NCBI GenBank assembly: GCA_027483645.1
Contig: JAIXUD010000009.1
Span: 614,814 to 678,813 of the forward strand
Direction: 5' to 3'
DNA from: Sphingobacteriales bacterium
GTDB taxonomy: Bacteria; Bacteroidota; Bacteroidia; Chitinophagales; CAIOSU01
Length of the DNA stretch: 64,000 bases
Both the position numbers and the translations under genes were made by a program. Each line of letters opens with the position of its first letter. Within the stretch, counting starts at the first letter, position 1. Below are positions 492-53,246 of the stretch, piece after piece. Under the pieces are notes generated by a model, which was not told where the DNA came from, did not search any database, and was given only the letters and a program-made list of their open reading frames with translations.

Positions 492-590
492 AAAACGGTT
501 TTAGGTTAGTTAAAACTTAAAACCGAGGTCTACCATAGGTAGGTAAGCATTACCAAATGCGACAGTGCCGCTCGCGATCGGCGCTGTCAG

Positions 591-664
591 ACTCCCTCCG
601 CCGGTATTACCCGGATCAGGTTCATTGGGTGTAATCTCAGCCCCCGTATTGGCGGGGGCACCCC
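591..664 (-). promoter_or_regulatory. TPP riboswitch (THI element) in the leader of the TonB receptor
   Basis: On the minus strand the conserved thi-box blocks occur in order and at normal spacing: GGGGTGC at the 5' end (664 downward), CTGAGA (640-635), ACCC, then GAACCTGATC (623-614), GGGTAATACC and GGCGGAGGGA (about 603-594). This is the full aptamer core that binds thiamine pyrophosphate. It ends about 100 nt before the receptor ATG at 491. A hairpin with 9-nt arms and one mismatch (588-561) follows and may be the expression platform. It has no U-tract, so translational control is more likely than attenuation. Confidence 0.96.
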
Positions 665-679
665 AGTCATTAACAAAGG

Positions 680-7331: not shown

Positions 7332-8731
7332 TGGAAACTAAGATTACCAAAGACCACCTGCGGGCTTTCGAAACGTTTGCCGATGTGCCCGATGAAGACC
7401 TACAATGGCTGGTGTGCAACAGCCGCTACTACACCATTATGAAAGATGGCTACCTGTTTAAAGAGGGCGACGCTACTAATGAGATGCACATAGTGCTCTC
7501 TGGCAAGCTGCTGCTGTACTTTAACCAAAACGGCCAGCGCCGCGTGGCGGGCGAATTGGAGCCTGGTGAGGTAACAGGGGTGCTGCCCTACAGCCGCATG
7601 GTGAAGGCAGGCGGCAATGGGTTGGCGCTGGAGCATACGGATATGCTCTCGTTGCACCGCGACAGTTTCCTGGAAATGATACAGCAGCGCCACGCCCTTA
7701 CGCAAAAGCTGGTAACGCTGATGACTAGCCGGGTGCGGGATTTTACGAAAATGCAATCGCAAAACGAAAAGATGATTTCGCTGGGCAAGCTCTCGGCAGG
7801 GCTAGCACACGAGCTTAACAACCCTGCAGCGGCCGTGGTGCGCAGTGCCAGCGAGCTGAAGAAGCACTTGGGTAACGTGCCCGATAAGTTTAAGCGGGTA
7901 ATGCTGATAAAGGTAACCCCCGAGGTGGTGGACTGCGTAAATGACATACTATTTGCCAAGCTGCAAGGTAAAAATGCCCTGAAGCTGAGTATGCTGGAGC
8001 GCAGCGAGAAGGAAGACGATATGACCTATTGGATGGAGGACCACAACATTGATAACGGTGCCGACCTTGCGGAGAACTTTGCGGATTTTGGCTTTGAGCT
8101 GGAGGACTTGGATGTGCTGCTCGAACATGTGGGCGAGCAAGATATCGCCTCTGTGTTGGGCTGGATGGATAGTGTAATGGCTACCGAAAAGCTGGTGGGC
8201 GAAATTGAGGAGGCTAGTAAACGAATATCGGCGTTGGTGAATTCGGTGAAAAGCTACAGCCATATGGACCGCGCCAACGATACCGAGGCGGTGGACATAC
8301 ACGATGGCATACGCAGCACTATTACGCTGCTCAACCATAAGATTAAAAAGAACGGCGTAAAGGTGATTGAGACGTTTGATAGCTCGCTGCCGAAGGTGCC
8401 GATATTTGTGAGCGAGATGAACCAGGTATATACCAACCTGATTGACAACGCTGTAGATGCTATGGAGGGCCGCGAAGGGAATACGCTAGAGATAGCCACC
8501 AAACAGGAGCGCGAATCGGTGGTAATCAGCATTATTGATAACGGCCCCGGTATAGCAGACGACGTGGTAGACCAAATATTCGACCCATTCTTTACTACCA
8601 AAGCCGTGGGCAAAGGCAGTGGCCTGGGGTTGGAGGTGGTGCGCAACATTGTGGAGCAGCATAAAGGCACCATAACGGTTCACAGTAAGCCGGGCAGGAC
8701 GGAGTTTCGGGTGTGTTTGCCGTTGGCTTAG
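7331..8731 (+). CDS. Soluble sensor histidine kinase with N-terminal cyclic-nucleotide-binding domain
   Basis: The 466-residue protein has no membrane segment. Residues about 10-130 form a Crp-type cNMP-binding domain ([21 protein letters not shown] and following). The phospho-acceptor motif is [17 protein letters not shown] (His about 160). The C-terminal ATPase shows [10 protein letters not shown] (N box), [11 protein letters not shown] (G1), FDPFFTTK (F box) and GSGLGLEVV (G2). It should autophosphorylate in the cytoplasm in response to a ligand or redox cue read by the cNMP domain. No response regulator is adjacent. It is coupled to the small gene at 7029. The kinase call is certain and the ligand unknown. 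Confidence 0.93.
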
Positions 8732-8898
8732 ACACAAGATATAAGACACAAGACACAAGACACAAGACATAAGACTTGCTTCAATTTGCTTCCGTGTGTT
8801 TCCGTGTGCTCCGTGGTTGTAACACAAACCACGGTACTTCAAGTTTAGAGCCTATTGCAAAGAGACCCCTCCGAAAAGGTCGGGGTGACAATACCGAC
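8732..8898. repeat. Intergenic low-complexity tract with ACACAAGACACAAG-type repeats
   Basis: Four or five short ACACAAG/ATAAG units follow the kinase stop (8732-8775), then TTCCGTGTG and CCACGG fragments. The same CCACGGA...ACACGGAAA wording occurs at about 48512 and 51077. No gene is seen here. A weak hairpin (GACCCCTCCGAAAAGGTCGGGGT, 8863-8885) may end transcription. Confidence 0.6.
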
Positions 8899-12875: not shown

Positions 12876-12911
12876 TGATGTACAATGTACGATGTACAAA
12901 GTACAATGTAA
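12876..12911. repeat. TGTACAATG-type short repeats between divergent genes
   Basis: ATGTACAATGTACGATGTAC and the following AAAGTACAATGTA consist of overlapping near-palindromic GTAC units. They lie in the 134-nt gap between the divergent TetR and nitroreductase genes. They may be regulatory or simple low-complexity spread; nothing decides between these. Confidence 0.5.
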
Positions 12912-12997
12912 AATGGTATGCTGATTTCCGTATAAAAATTACTAAAAAACAACCCTACTCAACTTTTTGCCCCAAGTTAGTGTTTACGCATGTAGTT

Positions 12998-13611: not shown

Positions 13612-14007
13612 ATGGTAGTAAAAGGGTCGCTTGGGAAAGAAGGTTACTATTTCCTGCTAGATACTGGCAAACGCACCATATTTGTGGATGAGCCAATAGA
13701 GAAAGGCGGCACTGATTTAGCGCCAAACCCATTGGAACTAATGCTCACCTCTCTGGCATCGTGCACCTGCGTTACGGTACAGATGTATGCCAAAACCAAA
13801 GGTTACCCGCTGGAGAAAATAGACGTGAAAGTAAACGGAACCATAGAAGCAGGTACTGGAAAACTGCTTGCCAACTGTGAGGTAACCCTCCACGGCCCAT
13901 TGGATGAACCCCAGCGAAAGCGGCTACTGGGTATCGCCAACCGCTGCCCGGTCCACCGCATCCTCAGCCCTCAGAATGATATTATGACGAGGTTGATGGC
14001 TTACTAA
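13612..14007 (+). CDS. OsmC/Ohr-family peroxiredoxin-like protein
   Basis: The 131-residue protein has the two cysteines of the OsmC fold in LTSLASCTCVTVQMYA (with an extra Cys two residues on) and IANRCPVHRIL. The motif GGTDLAPNPLELMLTSLASC is classic. OsmC/Ohr proteins reduce organic hydroperoxides through this Cys pair; some members in this subgroup have other thiol roles. It follows the nitroreductase by 2 nt, so the pair is one operon. Confidence 0.92.
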   Translation: MVVKGSLGKEGYYFLLDTGKRTIFVDEPIEKGGTDLAPNPLELMLTSLASCTCVTVQMYAKTKGYPLEKIDVKVNGTIEAGTGKLLANCEVTLHGPLDEPQRKRLLGIANRCPVHRILSPQNDIMTRLMAY

Positions 14008-14008
14008 T

Positions 14009-14061
14009 GTACCGAGGGCGAAAAGGCCCTCGGCTATCATTCTGATGCCCTTTCAGGGCGA
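14009..14061 (+). repeat. REP-like two-hairpin element, copy A
   Basis: Hairpin 1 (14012-14033) is CCGAGGGC-GAAAAG-GCCCTCGG and hairpin 2 (14047-14059) is GCCCTTTCAGGGC, joined by TATCATTCTGAT. It is the same architecture as the repeats around the transposase at 52525, but with different stem bases that still pair. The remaining 100 nt to the next gene hold nothing recognisable. Confidence 0.85.
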
Positions 14062-14164
14062 CCTGTATTATTGATTTCCCTATAGGGTCTTGTACCAATA
14101 GCATAGTGGTGTAGCAAAATCTGAGGCAGATTTTATAAATTTACCTTACACCTACCTTCTTCAT

Positions 14165-16219: not shown

Positions 16220-16599
16220 GCTAGACACAAGATTGTTAGACGCAAGACACAAGAAATGTCATCCTGAGCTTTTGTCGAAGGACTGCTGCAACACAATACA
16301 TGTCATCGCCAAACATAACATCGTCATTGCGAAGGCCTAATTGATATTGCGATTTGTGATGCCTTACAATGGCCTGTGGCAATCCCCTTAAATAAGGACT
16401 GCATTTACCCTTCCACTAATGTTAACGCATTATGTATATCAGGCCCTGGTCATCGCACATCAGTCTCTGTGGCAGGGGATTGCCACAGGCCATGGAAGTT
16501 TAGCACGGATTTTTAAAATCATGTAGGCCTTCGCAATGACGTACGTTTTGTATCACAATGACGCATATGGTTAACTAGTTTTTTCCTTATTTTTAAGGT
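16220..16599. repeat. Intergenic region with two families of dispersed repeats
   Basis: At 16224-16292 GACACAAG units run into TGTCATCCTGAGCTTTTGTC and GAAGGACTGCTGC; an inverted copy is at 19331-19382. At 16321-16390 and 16471-16541 lie two facing copies of an element bounded by CGTCATTGCGAAGGCC and GGCCTGTGGCAATCCCC; a third copy is at 63189-63263. No gene is present. A TATTTTTA box at 16588-16595 lies exactly 4 nt before the next ATG. Confidence 0.8.
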
Positions 16600-19235: not shown

Positions 19236-19330
19236 ATTTGAAGATTCCAGTCAATGAACGTCATTGTGTTTGGCACCCATTTCGGTAACCCCGCAATAAA
19301 CCCTGCAACATTTAAGTTATCCTTTTGAAG

Positions 19331-19382
19331 CAGTCCTTCGACAAAAGCTCAGGCTGACATTTCTTGTGTCTTGTGTCTTGGT
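19331..19382 (-). repeat. Inverted copy of the 16224-16292 intergenic repeat
   Basis: GAAGCAGTCCTTCGACAAAA continues into GCTCAGGCTGACATTTCTTG and TGTCTTGTGTC, the reverse complement of the sequence at 16224-16292 with few changes. The pair brackets the Kelch and cinA genes. Confidence 0.8.
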
Positions 19383-23134: not shown

Positions 23135-23525
23135 CAATAGCGGTTTTAGTCAATTGTAAAATTAAGGAAAACTTTTGGGTAATGGCATTTGCTGGCCTTG
23201 TATTGCAAATAAAGCTTAGCTGTGGCTACCTTATAAGACGGCTGAAATAGGCGAATATTGTATAGATTTAAAATGATTTTTTATTGGGCCGCTATTACAA
23301 CGTATTTCCTAAAACTCATTACTTCCCGAGGGCGAAAAGGCCCTCGACTGTTATTCTTATGCTCATTTGGGGCAATGTCATTAAATTAAGAATCTGTTAC
23401 TGCACATTACCAGAAACTCATTACGTCCCTAGGGCGGAAAGGCCCTAGGCTAACATTCTTATGCCCTTTCAGGGCGTACCATAATACGGGGCTATTGCAA
23501 TATAACATAAGGCTCCCGCCCTGTG
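23135..23525. repeat. Intergenic region with REP-like copies B (23317-23374) and C (23418-23478)
   Basis: Copy B has hairpin CGAGGGC-GAAAAG-GCCCTCG (23327-23346) and a decayed second hairpin. Copy C has CCTAGGGC-GGAAAG-GCCCTAGG (23428-23449) and an intact second hairpin, GCCCTTTCAGGGC (23463-23475). Both are preceded by CTCATTACNTCC, as in the copies around the transposase at 52525. No gene is seen. Confidence 0.85.
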
Positions 23526-26399
23526 CTAAAACGCGCTATCAAACACGTTCTTCTTTCGGCTCAGTTTAAGTTCCTGTAGCACCTGCGATTTTACGTTAAG
23601 CTCGATGGCGTAAGTTTGGCGCTCCAGCGGGAAAGGCACCCAATTAAAACGCAGCACCCAGCAGTGCATATCACGTATCACGTTCATGCTGGCGTATACC
23701 AGTTTGTTTTGGCTGAAGTCGTAAGACGATTGTACGTCCACCTTCCACTTTTCGGTAATGGTAATATCCACGCCCAAGGTAATGCTGTTGCTGCTCACTA
23801 CAAGGGTGTCAGGGTTGCCGCTTGCCCCCCTTCTCATACCGAAGTTATAGTTGAAGTTGAAGCTCCACGGCACATTAAAATCATAGTAGTTATTATAGTT
23901 GGCCATAATAATGTCGCGCTCTTGCTCGCGGCCCGGTTTTACACCTGGCACCTCGCTGCTGCCTTGCTTGGAGCGGAAACTACTGCCCACTGTAAAGTTG
24001 AAGCTGCGCAACTGCATCAATCGGCCGCTTTCTTCCAACAAAAATCTATCCACCCGCACATTTCGCTCATCATATACGTATGGGTCGAGAACCGTGGTAA
24101 AGTTGATGTTCAATTTATCAAATAAGGTAGTGTTCATGTTCATACCGAGCGGTGCCAAGCGCAACGAGTCGGCCGCGAAATTATAGGAAGTACTCAAGCT
24201 AAAGTTATCAATCAGCTTTATCTTTCTTTCATTTTTCACAGTATCCTTGCTACTAAAAACCTTCATCTCCAAGTTGTTGGTAATATTGATGCCTAGGCTC
24301 ATCTGCTCACCTGTGGGCGGCCCCCCGAAGATGCTTTGCACCGGTTCGTATATGGAGTATAGTTGTCGGTCGCCCTCTTGGTTTGTCTGCACCTCTTTAT
24401 AGTACCCCCAGCGCGGCTTACTAAAATCCGGGCGATAGGTAAAGGTAAGCGAGGGTGTCATTACATGGCGAATGGCCTTTAGCTTGCTGTTCTTAAACTG
24501 CAGCATACCAAATAACTTGGTGGTAATGGCGGTTTGGAAGTTAAAATCTCGGGCTGGTTTAAATTTATAAAAAGTATCCGCCTGTACCGTACCATAAAGG
24601 GTATCAATGGTAGTAATAGTGCTATCTCCCACCAATCTAGTAGTGGTTATGTACTGGGTGGTTGGGTCCCATTGCTTGTCAACGTTTTTTACATACCAAG
24701 TTTCGTTGTAATTAAACCTTGGGTTTACGGTAAAGTATTTAAAGATGCGGAAGTTGCTACCAATAGGTATAAAATGTTGCATACCGCTTTTCATGTTCTC
24801 CAACGTTTTTGTGCTGATGAAGTTAGAGTCGGTAGCCTCAATGGTATTGCGCAAGTTTACGGTGTAGCCTACAGTAATGGTTTCGTACCAAGCTTTTTTG
24901 GGTCCGGGTATTTTACGTTGGAACGGGGTAATGGTAGTGATGGCAAAGTTAATATCGGGCACTTGTAGCGTAATGGTACGGTTCAATAAGTTTTGATCGT
25001 GGCGGGCGTTTATGCTAAAGGTGAGGGGTTTACCCGTCCACGATTTGCTATAGCTCACGTTCGAGTTTAAGTTATTGCGCAATACCTGGCTTTGGTCGGT
25101 ATTATTGGTGTTTCTATCGTAGGTAGCGGTACCCAAGTTTGCTTGTGCGGAGAACACGCTGCCTGGGCGGGCCTTGCTATCTTGCCTGTGGCTCCAGGTT
25201 ACCCTAAAATCGTTTTGTACCGTAAAACTAGGTGCTTCCACATCGCCAGTGCGGTTTCGGTTGTAAGCCAGCAGTACGTTGCCATTAAACTTGTATCGCT
25301 TGCTGTAGCGCATGGTGTTGCCCAGGCCCCAGCTACCGTTGGTATATATAGAGCCGGTGAGGGCCATGTCAAAGTAGTCGCTTACATGGAAGTAATATCC
25401 CCCATCCCTAAAAAAGAAACCCCTATTTTGCTCCGCACCATATTGCGGCAGTATGATGCCCGAGCGGCGGTTTTTTTGAATAGGAAAAATACCGAACGGC
25501 GCAAATAGTGGCGTAGGTATATCGTGCACCACCAAGTTCGCGGGGCCTGATACTATTACCTTATCGGGTACCAGCTTTAGCCTTTTTGCGCTGATGTAAA
25601 AGTGTGGATGGTCTAAGTCGCAAGTAGTGTATTTGCCACCTTTGGCGTACCACTCCTCGTATTCGTTGCGCTTAATGGTATCGGCATGTATGTAGCCCTC
25701 GCCTTCTTGCGTACGCGCCTCAATCACTTTACCCTTCTTTGTTTTGAAGTTGTACATAATGGTTTTGGCATAGTACTCACTGGTAGCATCTTTAAATTTG
25801 GCCTTCTCAATCGGGTTGCCTAGCGAGTCTTTTTTCGATTCGGCAATTACTAAGTTGTTGGCCCAGTCCAGTTGTATGTAGTCGGCCTCCAGGGTTAAGT
25901 CTTTGTATATGATCACGGCATTGCCATACAGGTGCACCTTTTCGTCCAGTATATCATAGATAAGGCTATCATTGGCATTATACTGCACATCGGCATCAAA
26001 GGTATCTGCCGATATTTGGTACATCATTTCGTCGGGCGTAAGGGGCCTAATGGTATCCATGGTGCTACGGCTACTATCAGTTTGGAGGCTATCGCTTGGC
26101 AATATTATGCCCGCACTATCCGTTGGATTAGGTGGAAGGCTATCGTTACCGAGTAATTTGTTGCCTTTACGGTTTTTACCAGGGTTGAGGGGTATGGTAT
26201 CAGTAACGGTGATGGTAGTATCACGAGACATTATTTTGCTGCTTTTACGACTTTGGCCCGTATTTGGCTGGGGGGTATCAACAGGCAGCGTTACGTTTGG
26301 GGCGGTATCGTACACCAAACAGGACGAAACACCCATGGCGGGCGTGTTAAATGCCACTGCTAGCGCAAGCAATAATAAAACACCTAGCAGCCTAGCCAA
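23526..26399 (-). CDS. lptD: LptD-like LPS assembly outer membrane protein
   Basis: The 957-residue protein has a signal-like start (LLGVLLLLALAVAFN), a Ser/Thr/Pro-rich linker, then an OstA jellyroll (VHLYGNAVIIYKDLTLEADY, KGKVIEARTQEGEGYIHAD, WYAKGGKYTTCDLDHPHFYI). A large C-terminal beta-barrel follows with GFFFRDGGYYFHVSDYFDM, ITPFQRKIPGPKK and the final barrel strands. It should place LPS in the outer leaflet. The only start that keeps the signal peptide is TTG 26399, since TAA lies two codons upstream. It is divergent from the amidase gene, with a 35-nt gap holding a promoter box. Confidence 0.88.
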   Translation of the reverse strand: MARLLGVLLLLALAVAFNTPAMGVSSCLVYDTAPNVTLPVDTPQPNTGQSRKSSKIMSRDTTITVTDTIPLNPGKNRKGNKLLGNDSLPPNPTDSAGIILPSDSLQTDSSRSTMDTIRPLTPDEMMYQISADTFDADVQYNANDSLIYDILDEKVHLYGNAVIIYKDLTLEADYIQLDWANNLVIAESKKDSLGNPIEKAKFKDATSEYYAKTIMYNFKTKKGKVIEARTQEGEGYIHADTIKRNEYEEWYAKGGKYTTCDLDHPHFYISAKRLKLVPDKVIVSGPANLVVHDIPTPLFAPFGIFPIQKNRRSGIILPQYGAEQNRGFFFRDGGYYFHVSDYFDMALTGSIYTNGSWGLGNTMRYSKRYKFNGNVLLAYNRNRTGDVEAPSFTVQNDFRVTWSHRQDSKARPGSVFSAQANLGTATYDRNTNNTDQSQVLRNNLNSNVSYSKSWTGKPLTFSINARHDQNLLNRTITLQVPDINFAITTITPFQRKIPGPKKAWYETITVGYTVNLRNTIEATDSNFISTKTLENMKSGMQHFIPIGSNFRIFKYFTVNPRFNYNETWYVKNVDKQWDPTTQYITTTRLVGDSTITTIDTLYGTVQADTFYKFKPARDFNFQTAITTKLFGMLQFKNSKLKAIRHVMTPSLTFTYRPDFSKPRWGYYKEVQTNQEGDRQLYSIYEPVQSIFGGPPTGEQMSLGINITNNLEMKVFSSKDTVKNERKIKLIDNFSLSTSYNFAADSLRLAPLGMNMNTTLFDKLNINFTTVLDPYVYDERNVRVDRFLLEESGRLMQLRSFNFTVGSSFRSKQGSSEVPGVKPGREQERDIIMANYNNYYDFNVPWSFNFNYNFGMRRGASGNPDTLVVSSNSITLGVDITITEKWKVDVQSSYDFSQNKLVYASMNVIRDMHCWVLRFNWVPFPLERQTYAIELNVKSQVLQELKLSRKKNVFDSAF

Positions 26400-26408
26400 T
26401 TTTTACGT

Positions 26409-26416
26409 TATTTTTG
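26409..26416 (+). promoter_or_regulatory. -7 box TATTTTTG for the amidase gene
   Basis: A perfect TAnnTTTG match lies 18 nt before ATG 26435, in the gap between divergent lptD and amidase genes. Confidence 0.5.
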
Positions 26417-26434
26417 TAATGTAGTAGTTAAATA

Positions 26435-27700
26435 ATGGGCGCTAAAATACAAAAGCTAAACGACACCCTATTGAACGCAAAAGGCGTAATCATAGTATTG
26501 TGGATTGCGTTGATGGTTTTTTTACCGTCGGCTAATTTCTCGTTGCCACCAGAGCAGGCCGATTTTAAAATTGATGTAGTAGTAATTGATGCCGGCCACG
26601 GTGGCCATGACCCCGGTACCATCGGCTTCAGCAAAACGCACGAAAAGAATATTGCCCTTGCCGTATCGTTAAAGGTGGGTGCTTATATTAAAGAGAATTA
26701 CCCCAACATCAAAGTTATCTATACTCGCGATAAGGATGCTTTCGTAGAGCTACATGAGCGATCTAATATTGCCAATAAAGCCAAGGCTGACCTTTTTATA
26801 TCCATCCATTGCAATGCCTTCTCGTCTAGCACCGTGCATGGTACCGAAGTGTTTGTACTGGGCTTGCACAAGAGTGCGGAGAATTTGGCGGTAGCGCAAC
26901 GGGAAAACTCCGTAATATTAACCGAGGACGACCACGAAGGAAATTATGACGGATTCGACCCTAAATCACCAGAGGCTACTATTTTGATGGTGATGCACCA
27001 AAGTGCCTACATAGACCAAAGCATTAGCCTAGCACAAAAGCTCGATAAACAATTTACTGATAAAGTAAAACGTACCAGCCGGGGCGTAAAGCAGGCGGGA
27101 TTTATTGTGCTGTACAAGAGCGCCATGCCCAGTGTGCTGGTAGAGCTGGGTTTCATTAGCAACAAAAACGAGGAAAGCTTTCTTACTACAGAAGAAGGGC
27201 AATCGTATATGGCATCAGCCATTTACCGAGCCTTTAAGGATTATAAGATAGAGTACGAAAAAAACGGCCCTAGCGGATTGACCAATACCGAGATACCCCC
27301 TGCCGAGGAGCCGGTAACCACTCCCGAGCCGCCAAAACCAGCGGATAAACCGACGCCTGACCCACCAAAAACGGCCGATAAACCAAAAGCTGACCCAACA
27401 AAAACCAACACGCCGCCGGTAGATAAGCCGAATAGCCCACCAAAGGATAAAGTAGTATTTAAAGTACAATTCTTATCATCTGATAAAGAATTGCCGCAAA
27501 GTGCACCTGAATTAAAAAAGGTAGATGGCTGGGAAGTACTAAAAGTGGATAAAAGGTACAAATATATTACCGGTGCGCTTGACACCTATGATGCAGCACT
27601 GAAACTGCAAAAACAGGTACGCACCCACTTTCCCGATGCCTTTATGGTGGCTTTTAAAAACGGTGTGCAAATAACCATTGCTGAGGCTAAGGCGCAATAG
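26435..27700 (+). CDS. N-acetylmuramoyl-L-alanine amidase (Amidase_3) with C-terminal proline-rich extension
   Basis: The 421-residue protein has a membrane anchor (GVIIVLWIALMVFL, residues 17-30), then the zinc amidase domain: DAGHGGHDPG (His 55), HEKNIAL (Glu 70), FISIHCNAFS (His 125) and SVLVELGFISN (Glu 237). These are the metal and catalytic positions of the family. It cuts the stem peptide from MurNAc, for daughter-cell separation. After residue 275 comes a Pro/Thr/Lys linker, then a 95-residue module (VFKVQFLSSDKELP onward) that may be SPOR-like and bind septal glycan. It is divergent from lptD. Confidence 0.93.
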   Translation: MGAKIQKLNDTLLNAKGVIIVLWIALMVFLPSANFSLPPEQADFKIDVVVIDAGHGGHDPGTIGFSKTHEKNIALAVSLKVGAYIKENYPNIKVIYTRDKDAFVELHERSNIANKAKADLFISIHCNAFSSSTVHGTEVFVLGLHKSAENLAVAQRENSVILTEDDHEGNYDGFDPKSPEATILMVMHQSAYIDQSISLAQKLDKQFTDKVKRTSRGVKQAGFIVLYKSAMPSVLVELGFISNKNEESFLTTEEGQSYMASAIYRAFKDYKIEYEKNGPSGLTNTEIPPAEEPVTTPEPPKPADKPTPDPPKTADKPKADPTKTNTPPVDKPNSPPKDKVVFKVQFLSSDKELPQSAPELKKVDGWEVLKVDKRYKYITGALDTYDAALKLQKQVRTHFPDAFMVAFKNGVQITIAEAKAQ

Positions 27701-52207: not shown

Positions 52208-52506
52208 TTCATTACGTCCGATGGGCTAAATGGCCCATCGCTAGCATTCTGATGCCCCTTCAGGGCGATGGTGCGAATATGTTTACTTTCCGATGGGCGG
52301 AAAAGCCCATCGCTAGCATTCGCCCGTTAAGACGATGGTTTTATTATGTTACGCCCTGAAGGGGCATAAGAATGATAGCGTCGGGCTTTTCCGCCCGACG
52401 TACGCAATGCGTTTCAATTTTAAATGCTCCAGTAAGCAAAAATCCCTTATCATATTCGATGGGCAAAAAGGCCCATCGCTAGCATTCTTGTGCCCCTTCA
52501 GGGCGT
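52208..52506. repeat. REP-like cluster, 3' side of the transposase (copies D, E, F, G)
   Basis: Four two-hairpin elements lie at 52208-52267 (D, plus), 52283-52335 (E, plus, second hairpin broken), 52350-52404 (F, minus) and 52449-52506 (G, plus). Hairpin 1 is CGATGGGC...GCCCATCG in D, E and G, and CGTCGGGC...GCCCGACG in F. Hairpin 2 is GCCCCTTCAGGGC. A conserved linker, CTAGCATTCTGAT, joins the two. Confidence 0.9.
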
Positions 52507-52524
52507 GAGTGAATAATATAGGCT

Positions 52525-52977
52525 TCAGTCCCAAACATAACGTTCATCGTATGCTACTTTGTGCTCTTTGAAAAACACTCGGCATTCGTCTTGAAAAGAT
52601 TGTGTTTTATGATGTTCGTGTTGATTAGCGATATAGTTACAAACGGCAGGGATTTTAGAGGTGCTAACCGAAAATGCCGCATAACCATCTTGCCAATAGA
52701 AGCCCTTATATGGTTCACCTTGCTTTTTCATCCATAAGCTGGATTGTCCTTTCACTTCCTCCAACAACTTCATTACCGCTATCCTACGCGATAAACCGCA
52801 TAGTATATGCACGTGGTCGTAATATCCACCCACTTTAATTGGGTAGCAATCCAACCCATTGCAAATGCCACCTAAATATTCATGAAGCCTGGGTTCAATC
52901 TCTAAGTCTATAGTTGGTTGCCGAAGCTTTGTACTGAAAATGAGGTGCAAATATATCTGCGAAAGTGATTGTGGCAT
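52525..52977 (-). CDS. IS200-like Y1 (HUH) transposase, REP-associated (RAYT-like)
   Basis: The 150-residue single-domain Y1 protein has QIYLHLIFSTKLRQPTI at the N-terminus, the HUH pair HVH (residues 55-57) in GGYYDHVHILCGL, the catalytic Tyr 115 with Gln 119 in NYIANQHEHH, and ends in ERYVWD. It should nick and join single-stranded DNA at folded palindromes. No tnpB follows. Palindromic elements crowd both sides (52208-52506 and 53048-53246), as for RAYT-REP systems. The ORF is intact, so activity is possible. Confidence 0.92.
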   Translation of the reverse strand: MPQSLSQIYLHLIFSTKLRQPTIDLEIEPRLHEYLGGICNGLDCYPIKVGGYYDHVHILCGLSRRIAVMKLLEEVKGQSSLWMKKQGEPYKGFYWQDGYAAFSVSTSKIPAVCNYIANQHEHHKTQSFQDECRVFFKEHKVAYDERYVWD

Positions 52978-53047
52978 ATATGCATATTTGCCTACAAATA
53001 AGCTTTTAACTCTTTAAAATTCCAAATTGCTGTCACCATTTTTGTTT

Positions 53048-53246
53048 CGCCCCGAAGGGGCATAATAATGATAGCGTCGGGCTTTTCCGCCCGACGTACA
53101 TATTGTATTATAAGGTTAGGATTAGAAAAGCCTGTATTATGTCCGATGGGCGAAAAAGCCCATCGCTAGCATTCTGGTGCCCTTGCAGGGCGGCGTTGCA
53201 AATATCTTTGCATTACGATGGCATTTCAGCCCGACGTAAGTAATGC
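53048..53246. repeat. REP-like cluster, 5' side of the transposase (copies H, I, J)
   Basis: H (53048-53100) is inverted, with stem CGTCGGGC...GCCCGACG at 53075-53096. I (53136-53192) is direct, with stem CGATGGGC...GCCCATCG at 53144-53165. J (53208-53246) is a degraded part-copy. H faces G across the transposase gene, giving an inverted frame. Confidence 0.88.

Follow-up and report, generated by a model that had tools for sequence, protein, structure and literature searches.

A probable REPtron-like unit formed by a subclass 1.2 Y1 transposase gene and two-hairpin repeats in Bacteroidota

In class-2 REP/TnpAREP (RAYT) REPtrons, such as those of E. coli (rayT), Pseudomonas and Stenotrophomonas, a resident Y1 gene lies among inverted and direct palindromic repeats that are dispersed through intergenic DNA, occur in pairs and clusters, and have a foot ending in TAG on the 5' side of the hairpin. 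Of the GTAG foot of known REPs, the A and the G are believed to pair with a CT site. Experiments on TnpAREP indicate that the GTAG foot matters for cleavage and that foot bases help to pick a CT or CA site (PMC8266576). The insertion sequences of the IS200/IS605 family (IS608, ISDra2) likewise use a 5' foot guide beside a hairpin. Subclass 1.2 of the Y1 transposases is a different case, as Quentin et al. 2018 (PMC6006769) describe it with neither insertion-sequence properties nor REPs, the latter listed as 'no', and with a range mostly in Cyanobacteria and Bacteroidetes. Its role has therefore been open, and we found no later paper in the open-licence literature that revises the 'no REPs' entry. 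The CGTC-tagged REPs (Di Nocera et al. 2013, PMC3733652) are reported to lack a dedicated transposase.

Here we analyse a stretch of 64,000 nucleotides (the window; G000:C10:614814-678813) from the 4.27-Mb genome, in 23 contigs, of a Sphingobacteriales bacterium. We propose, with a probability of roughly 0.7, that it contains a REPtron-like unit, that is, a low-copy, IS200-type single-strand transposase of subclass 1.2 encoded on the chromosome and, as its cognate partners, two-hairpin REP elements. The partnership between gene and element is well supported as an association, and mobilisation of the elements by the protein, which we infer, is moderately supported. The locus shares with class-2 REPtrons the arrangement of gene and repeats given above and a foot ending in TAG, but its protein falls in class 1, with Y-x3-Q-x2-HH rather than Y-x3-NP, its element contains a second hairpin, constant and placed about 9 nt 5' of the foot, and the first tag base is free in the Bacteroidota elements, whereas the class-2 criterion is GT[AG]G.

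Class of the transposase

The gene (52525..52977, minus strand) is an open, intact reading frame of 150 aa encoding a Y1 (HUH) transposase that matches Pfam Y1_Tnp with 86.5 bits and the NCBIfam IS200/IS605 family with 64.7 bits. The protein carries DHVH at 54-57, WQ at 95-96 and YIANQHEHH starting at the catalytic Tyr115, and no tnpB is seen next to its gene, which agrees with the intact HVH, Tyr 115, tnpB-free Y1 transposase of the preliminary description. The neighbours are a biotin-synthase-type gene and a gene whose product has SprB repeats and a T9SS sorting tail.

Several traits point to subclass 1.2. DHVH fits the subclass motif DH[IV]H, Y-x3-Q-x2-HH is found in 84 of 86 relatives and WQ in all 86, and the subclass habit of about 148 aa and a few divergent copies per genome is seen here as 150 aa and three copies, 38-68% identical to each other; the class-2 signature Y-x3-NP is replaced by YIANQ. 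In the tree, in which several forks are unresolved, class 2 splits off with full support, the IS200/IS605 rows fall together and apart from the subclass 1.2 rows, and the window protein joins those of G003, G000_C1 and G002 in a genus-level clade (support 100/93). Our A3 profile matches the TnpA proteins of IS608 and ISDra2 but not TnpAREP 4er8, even at E 10. The AlphaFold2 model of the protein (mean pLDDT 91) gives Z 15.1 and rmsd 2.9 over 108 residues against 2a6m, and Z 15.0 and rmsd 2.1 over 107 against 2xqc, so that IS608/ISDra2 score about 15 compared with 10.5 for TnpAREP 4er8, and Foldseek yields the same order. By sequence, tyrosine motif, tree and predicted fold, then, the protein is classed as an IS200/IS605-like TnpA of subclass 1.2. 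It is not a RAYT proper: Y-x3-NP is lacking, the tree separates class 2, and the fold lies nearer to IS608 and ISDra2. The reading as a REP-RAYT-like system holds in a looser sense, in that a low-copy Y1 gene is nested in dispersed intergenic repeats, is flanked by them across phyla, is nearly absent from plasmids and phages, and shows presence/absence variation; it fails in that the protein belongs to class 1 and the foot conserved across phyla lies on the other strand.

The window's genome holds other Y1 genes with repeats of their own. The third subclass 1.2 gene, at 38% identity (L072, G000:C2:176000-181000), has an inverted hairpin family of its own on its flanks (GTCCCCTTGGGGAC ... GGTTGGTAGC). 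Four further Y1 genes group with class 2 (E. coli RayT) in the tree, and two class-2-like genes of the genome, L004 (G000:C9:70281) and L005 (C5:3604), each have a repeat array, the one on C9 also looking two-hairpin (CATCCGCGC..GCGCGGATG, then GAGCTTCTAGCTC).

Design of the element and its probable active strand

On one flank of the gene lie elements C (52211..52270, plus strand; first hairpin, HP1, 52219-52240, a CTA foot that reads nTAG on the minus strand, and second hairpin, HP2, 52254-52266), D (52286..52345, plus; HP1 52291-52312 intact, HP2 decayed), E (52346..52408, minus; CGTCGGGC stem, HP1 52400-52379, HP2 52365-52353) and F (52449..52513, plus; HP1 52457-52478, HP2 52492-52504). 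The other flank holds G (53040..53104, minus; CGTCGGGC stem, HP1 53096-53075, HP2 53061-53049), H (53136..53200, plus; HP1 53144-53165, HP2 53179-53191) and a decayed remnant without assigned strand (53216..53236), whose arms, read directly, belong to two stem types (CGATGG / GCCCGACG) and which lies close to the right-hand end of the short interval seen in congeners. The count of four elements on one side and three on the other is thus upheld, with the third of the shorter side being this decayed, mixed-arm copy. Farther off are element A (14006..14070, plus; CCGAGGGC stem), element B (23422..23486, plus; CCTAGGGC stem) and B' (23318..23382, plus), a weaker direct repeat of B with a decayed HP2. 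All four stem types originally named are present, except that the one given as CGAGGGC is in fact the 8-bp CCGAGGGC. In predicted folds as single-stranded DNA the elements form two hairpins (z-scores -1.9 to -4.1).

The elements are real but had been drawn too short: information content sets in abruptly at -21 before HP1 and stops at +11 after HP2, so that the unit has sharp edges and measures about 80 nt. Covariation of HP1, an 8-bp stem, is far beyond chance. In 48 wider copies 93% of pairing cells are paired, and two-sided changes number 51, compared with 12 in shuffles and 2-6 in controls with slid partners.

The preliminary description had drawn the strand that reads HP1-CTA-linker-HP2. 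Since the CTA beside HP1 is nearly invariant, the opposite strand reads 5'-HP2, about 9 nt, nTAG, HP1, with a foot resembling the canonical GTAG of REPs, and it is this foot, on the strand opposite to the drawn one, that recurs across phyla. In the window's genome 49 of 60 copies have the nTAG foot (CTAG 25, ATAG 10, TTAG 9, GTAG 5). In this genus the other strand does have a second conserved tag, [CT]GT[CA], whose T is invariant in 59 of 59; it is not conserved in the cross-phylum loci, and the comparison of sequences therefore makes us lean towards the nTAG strand as the active one. The [CT]GT[CA] before HP1 and the 8-bp stem recall the CGTC-tagged REPs, but the window stems begin with C rather than AT, the tail is CTA rather than CCA, and the loop lengths differ; because stem start and tail do not fit, we rejected membership of the elements in that family.

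Related loci in other phyla

Relatives of the transposase were searched in 150 related genomes and among genome contigs. The latter search gave 565 relatives, of which the best 80 loci were kept, a best-scoring rather than a random sample, spread over Bacteroidota, Ignavibacteriota, Chlorobiota, Verrucomicrobiota, Planctomycetota, Acidobacteriota, Sumerlaeota and others. Many of these loci lie on MAG contigs, for which the phylum given may be wrong. Named relatives are mostly Bacteroidota, and together with the T9SS protein beside the window gene they place the host in this phylum. Strong hairpins show an enrichment of about sevenfold in the 250 bp on either side of the gene, and a repeat common to the left and right flanks is found in 62 of 77 testable related loci, compared with 16 of 275 shifted windows and 5 of 87 control genes of 100-400 aa; E. 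coli rayT, the positive control, also scores positive. These 62 loci correct the description of the subclass and leave the assignment standing. REP-type repeats thus appear to be present in subclass 1.2, recorded as having none: among the close relatives examined here flanking repeats are the rule, and the relatives extend to Verrucomicrobiota, Planctomycetota, Acidobacteriota and others, both unlike the subclass as described.

The repeats of the related loci have unrelated stem sequences and one common design. The foot seen most often is TAG (56 of 284 hairpins near the gene compared with 7 of 344 far from it, p ~4e-14), and it was found in 34 of 72 related loci; some close relatives (G077) use another foot, and GTAG itself is found in some loci of Planctomycetota, Verrucomicrobiota and Sumerlaeota. 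A second hairpin lies 5' of TAG in 45 of 55 cases, mostly 7-10 nt away; a strict-stem count of hairpin pairs understates HP2. Nearly all the close orthologues that were examined are accompanied by arrays of a repeat type specific to them, and among 13 tested distant subclass-1.2-like genes of the order (~35% identity) about one third have shared flanking repeats. Within the order, matches to the genus's own element model occur in 7 of 12 genomes that have a close orthologue, compared with 15 of 138 others (p 3e-4). Upstream of the gene of Bacteroides xylanisolvens XB1A (L244, 3700-3935) there are tandem truncated units comprising HP2, TAG and half of HP1.

Could the locus simply be an ordinary IS200/IS605 insertion sequence with hairpin ends, accompanied by short non-autonomous, MITE-like derivatives? 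The sequence and fold are closest to TnpA of IS608 and ISDra2, with which the protein shares the catalytic domain, the hairpins adjoin the gene, and the location of the gene differs between species. We nevertheless hold such an insertion sequence to be very unlikely. The system has no tnpB, its gene copies include no near-identical ones, the elements are far more numerous than the genes, and the flanks consist of arrays of whole elements in either orientation instead of single left and right ends. Moreover, of five plasmid IS200/IS605 genes four have no such flanks and one has a weak 17-bp match (a Salmonella plasmid stretch with an IS200 tnpA, L280, whose neighbours are virulence-plasmid genes, was left out), and only one close relative of the transposase is found in 72,556 plasmid records and none in phages.

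A REPtron-like unit fits these observations better, and for subclass 1.2 one may go further. We would give even odds to the proposal that, in each of several phyla, proteins of subclass 1.2 mobilise a two-hairpin element of their own with an nTAG foot, that the TAG guide and domestication either predate the split of classes 1 and 2 or arose by convergence, and that HP2 is a new functional part. The pairing of the subclass with a defined element provides a testable substrate. It also suggests that REP-type domestication arose on both main Y1 branches or is older than their split, and the conserved second hairpin is the part that known REPs lack. Such elements may account for a common class of GCCC..GGGC palindromes in the intergenic DNA of Bacteroidota.

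Dispersal and turnover within the genus

Scanned with a covariance model made from eight window copies, the 4.27-Mb genome yields 79 places, of which about 70 convince when read. Of 68 tested copies, 56 lie outside ORFs of at least 100 aa, compared with 40 of 300 random window positions. A handful of copies would have been damaging to the preliminary description, which on this point is borne out by some 70 mostly intergenic ones. About 60 lie outside the locus. Clustered copies number 31 of 73, and neighbouring pairs are inverted in 14 cases and direct in 4. The copies form two subtypes: long-loop copies are mostly nearer to the elements flanking the window gene (27 of 30) and short-loop copies to those flanking the second gene, on C1 (21 of 26), so that dispersed subtypes mostly match the flanks of one or the other paralogue.

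Between the same two flanking genes, congeners G001, G002 and G003 have an interval of 83-86 bp with one decayed element and no transposase, compared with about 1,050 bp here, and the genes of G002 and G003 sit at sites that are not orthologous to that of the window gene. Element A is missing from the orthologous site in all four congeners. At site A and at the cluster the intergenic background is too diverged for exact boundaries of an empty site. Twelve G003 sites were compared: four share flanks with element sites of the window's genome (G000) and eight with G002 element sites, at about 94% identity, and between G002 and G003 most element sites are stable. One G003 site with several elements (L298), the single well-conserved site, is missing from G001 and G002 but found in G004, a more distant relative, so elements are also lost. 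Species differ in presence or absence of the cluster and of element A; the variation at L298 fits deletion as well as insertion.

It is possible that the repeats spread or persist by another route, through another transposase, recombination, or an RNA regulatory or terminator role, and that the Y1 gene inserted into an existing cluster. The decayed element at the cluster site of congeners without the gene would fit this, as would the stability of most G002-G003 sites and the elements without a detected gene in G004 (12 copies; genome 78% complete) and in G122 (33 copies; 75% complete), the latter carried in a TIR-bounded unit of about 350 bp. We give this route little credence, since the pairing of gene and element recurs with its architecture in many lineages with unrelated stems, the elements occur in both orientations without a T-run after HP1, and no Rfam 15 family matches them at the gathering score. 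The worry raised at the outset, that such repeats might abound in relatives without the transposase, thus applies in part, to G004 and G122, and G001 keeps only a broken remnant of a subclass-1.2-type gene; these cases also fit later loss of the gene, or incomplete genomes.

Alternatively, the protein may bind the elements for a host function, such as fork or ssDNA processing or control of its own gene, with movement having been lost. The low gene copy number, the genus-level clade noted above and the element of G125, of which only a local array and no dispersed copy was found, would all suit a protein retained in this way. Spread is indeed not universal, with B. xylanisolvens XB1A having about five dispersed copies (G077 has seven). 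Nonetheless, the roughly 70 dispersed copies and the species-specific sites in the window's genome make loss of movement an unlikely reading.

We therefore return to the REPtron-like unit, for which the following mechanism can be envisaged. A dimeric HUH enzyme would recognise HP1 and the TAG foot in single-stranded form, probably on the lagging-strand template, and would cleave through a phosphotyrosine bond at Tyr115 at a site chosen partly by the foot. Occasionally it may copy or move element units, often as inverted pairs. The gene itself would no longer behave as an insertion sequence and would be kept as a resident, at times relocated within its own repeats. Perhaps HP2 serves as a second protein contact or as a boundary, although this is a guess.

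Some further features were seen along the way. In G122 (L193-L195), the elements form inverted pairs within the repeated unit of about 350 bp; this unit has CTAGTTCTAA/TTAGAACTAG at its boundaries and resembles a MITE that has captured elements. In the window, the segment ~23400-27700 is inverted relative to the four congeners, with one breakpoint at elements B'/B. The only Rfam 15 match in the window is a TPP riboswitch aptamer (576-675, minus strand, 69 bits). Short high-identity repeats with many copies in congeners lie at 8729-8780, 12877-12916, ~16239-16290 and 19327-19380, and the last two look like an inverted pair.
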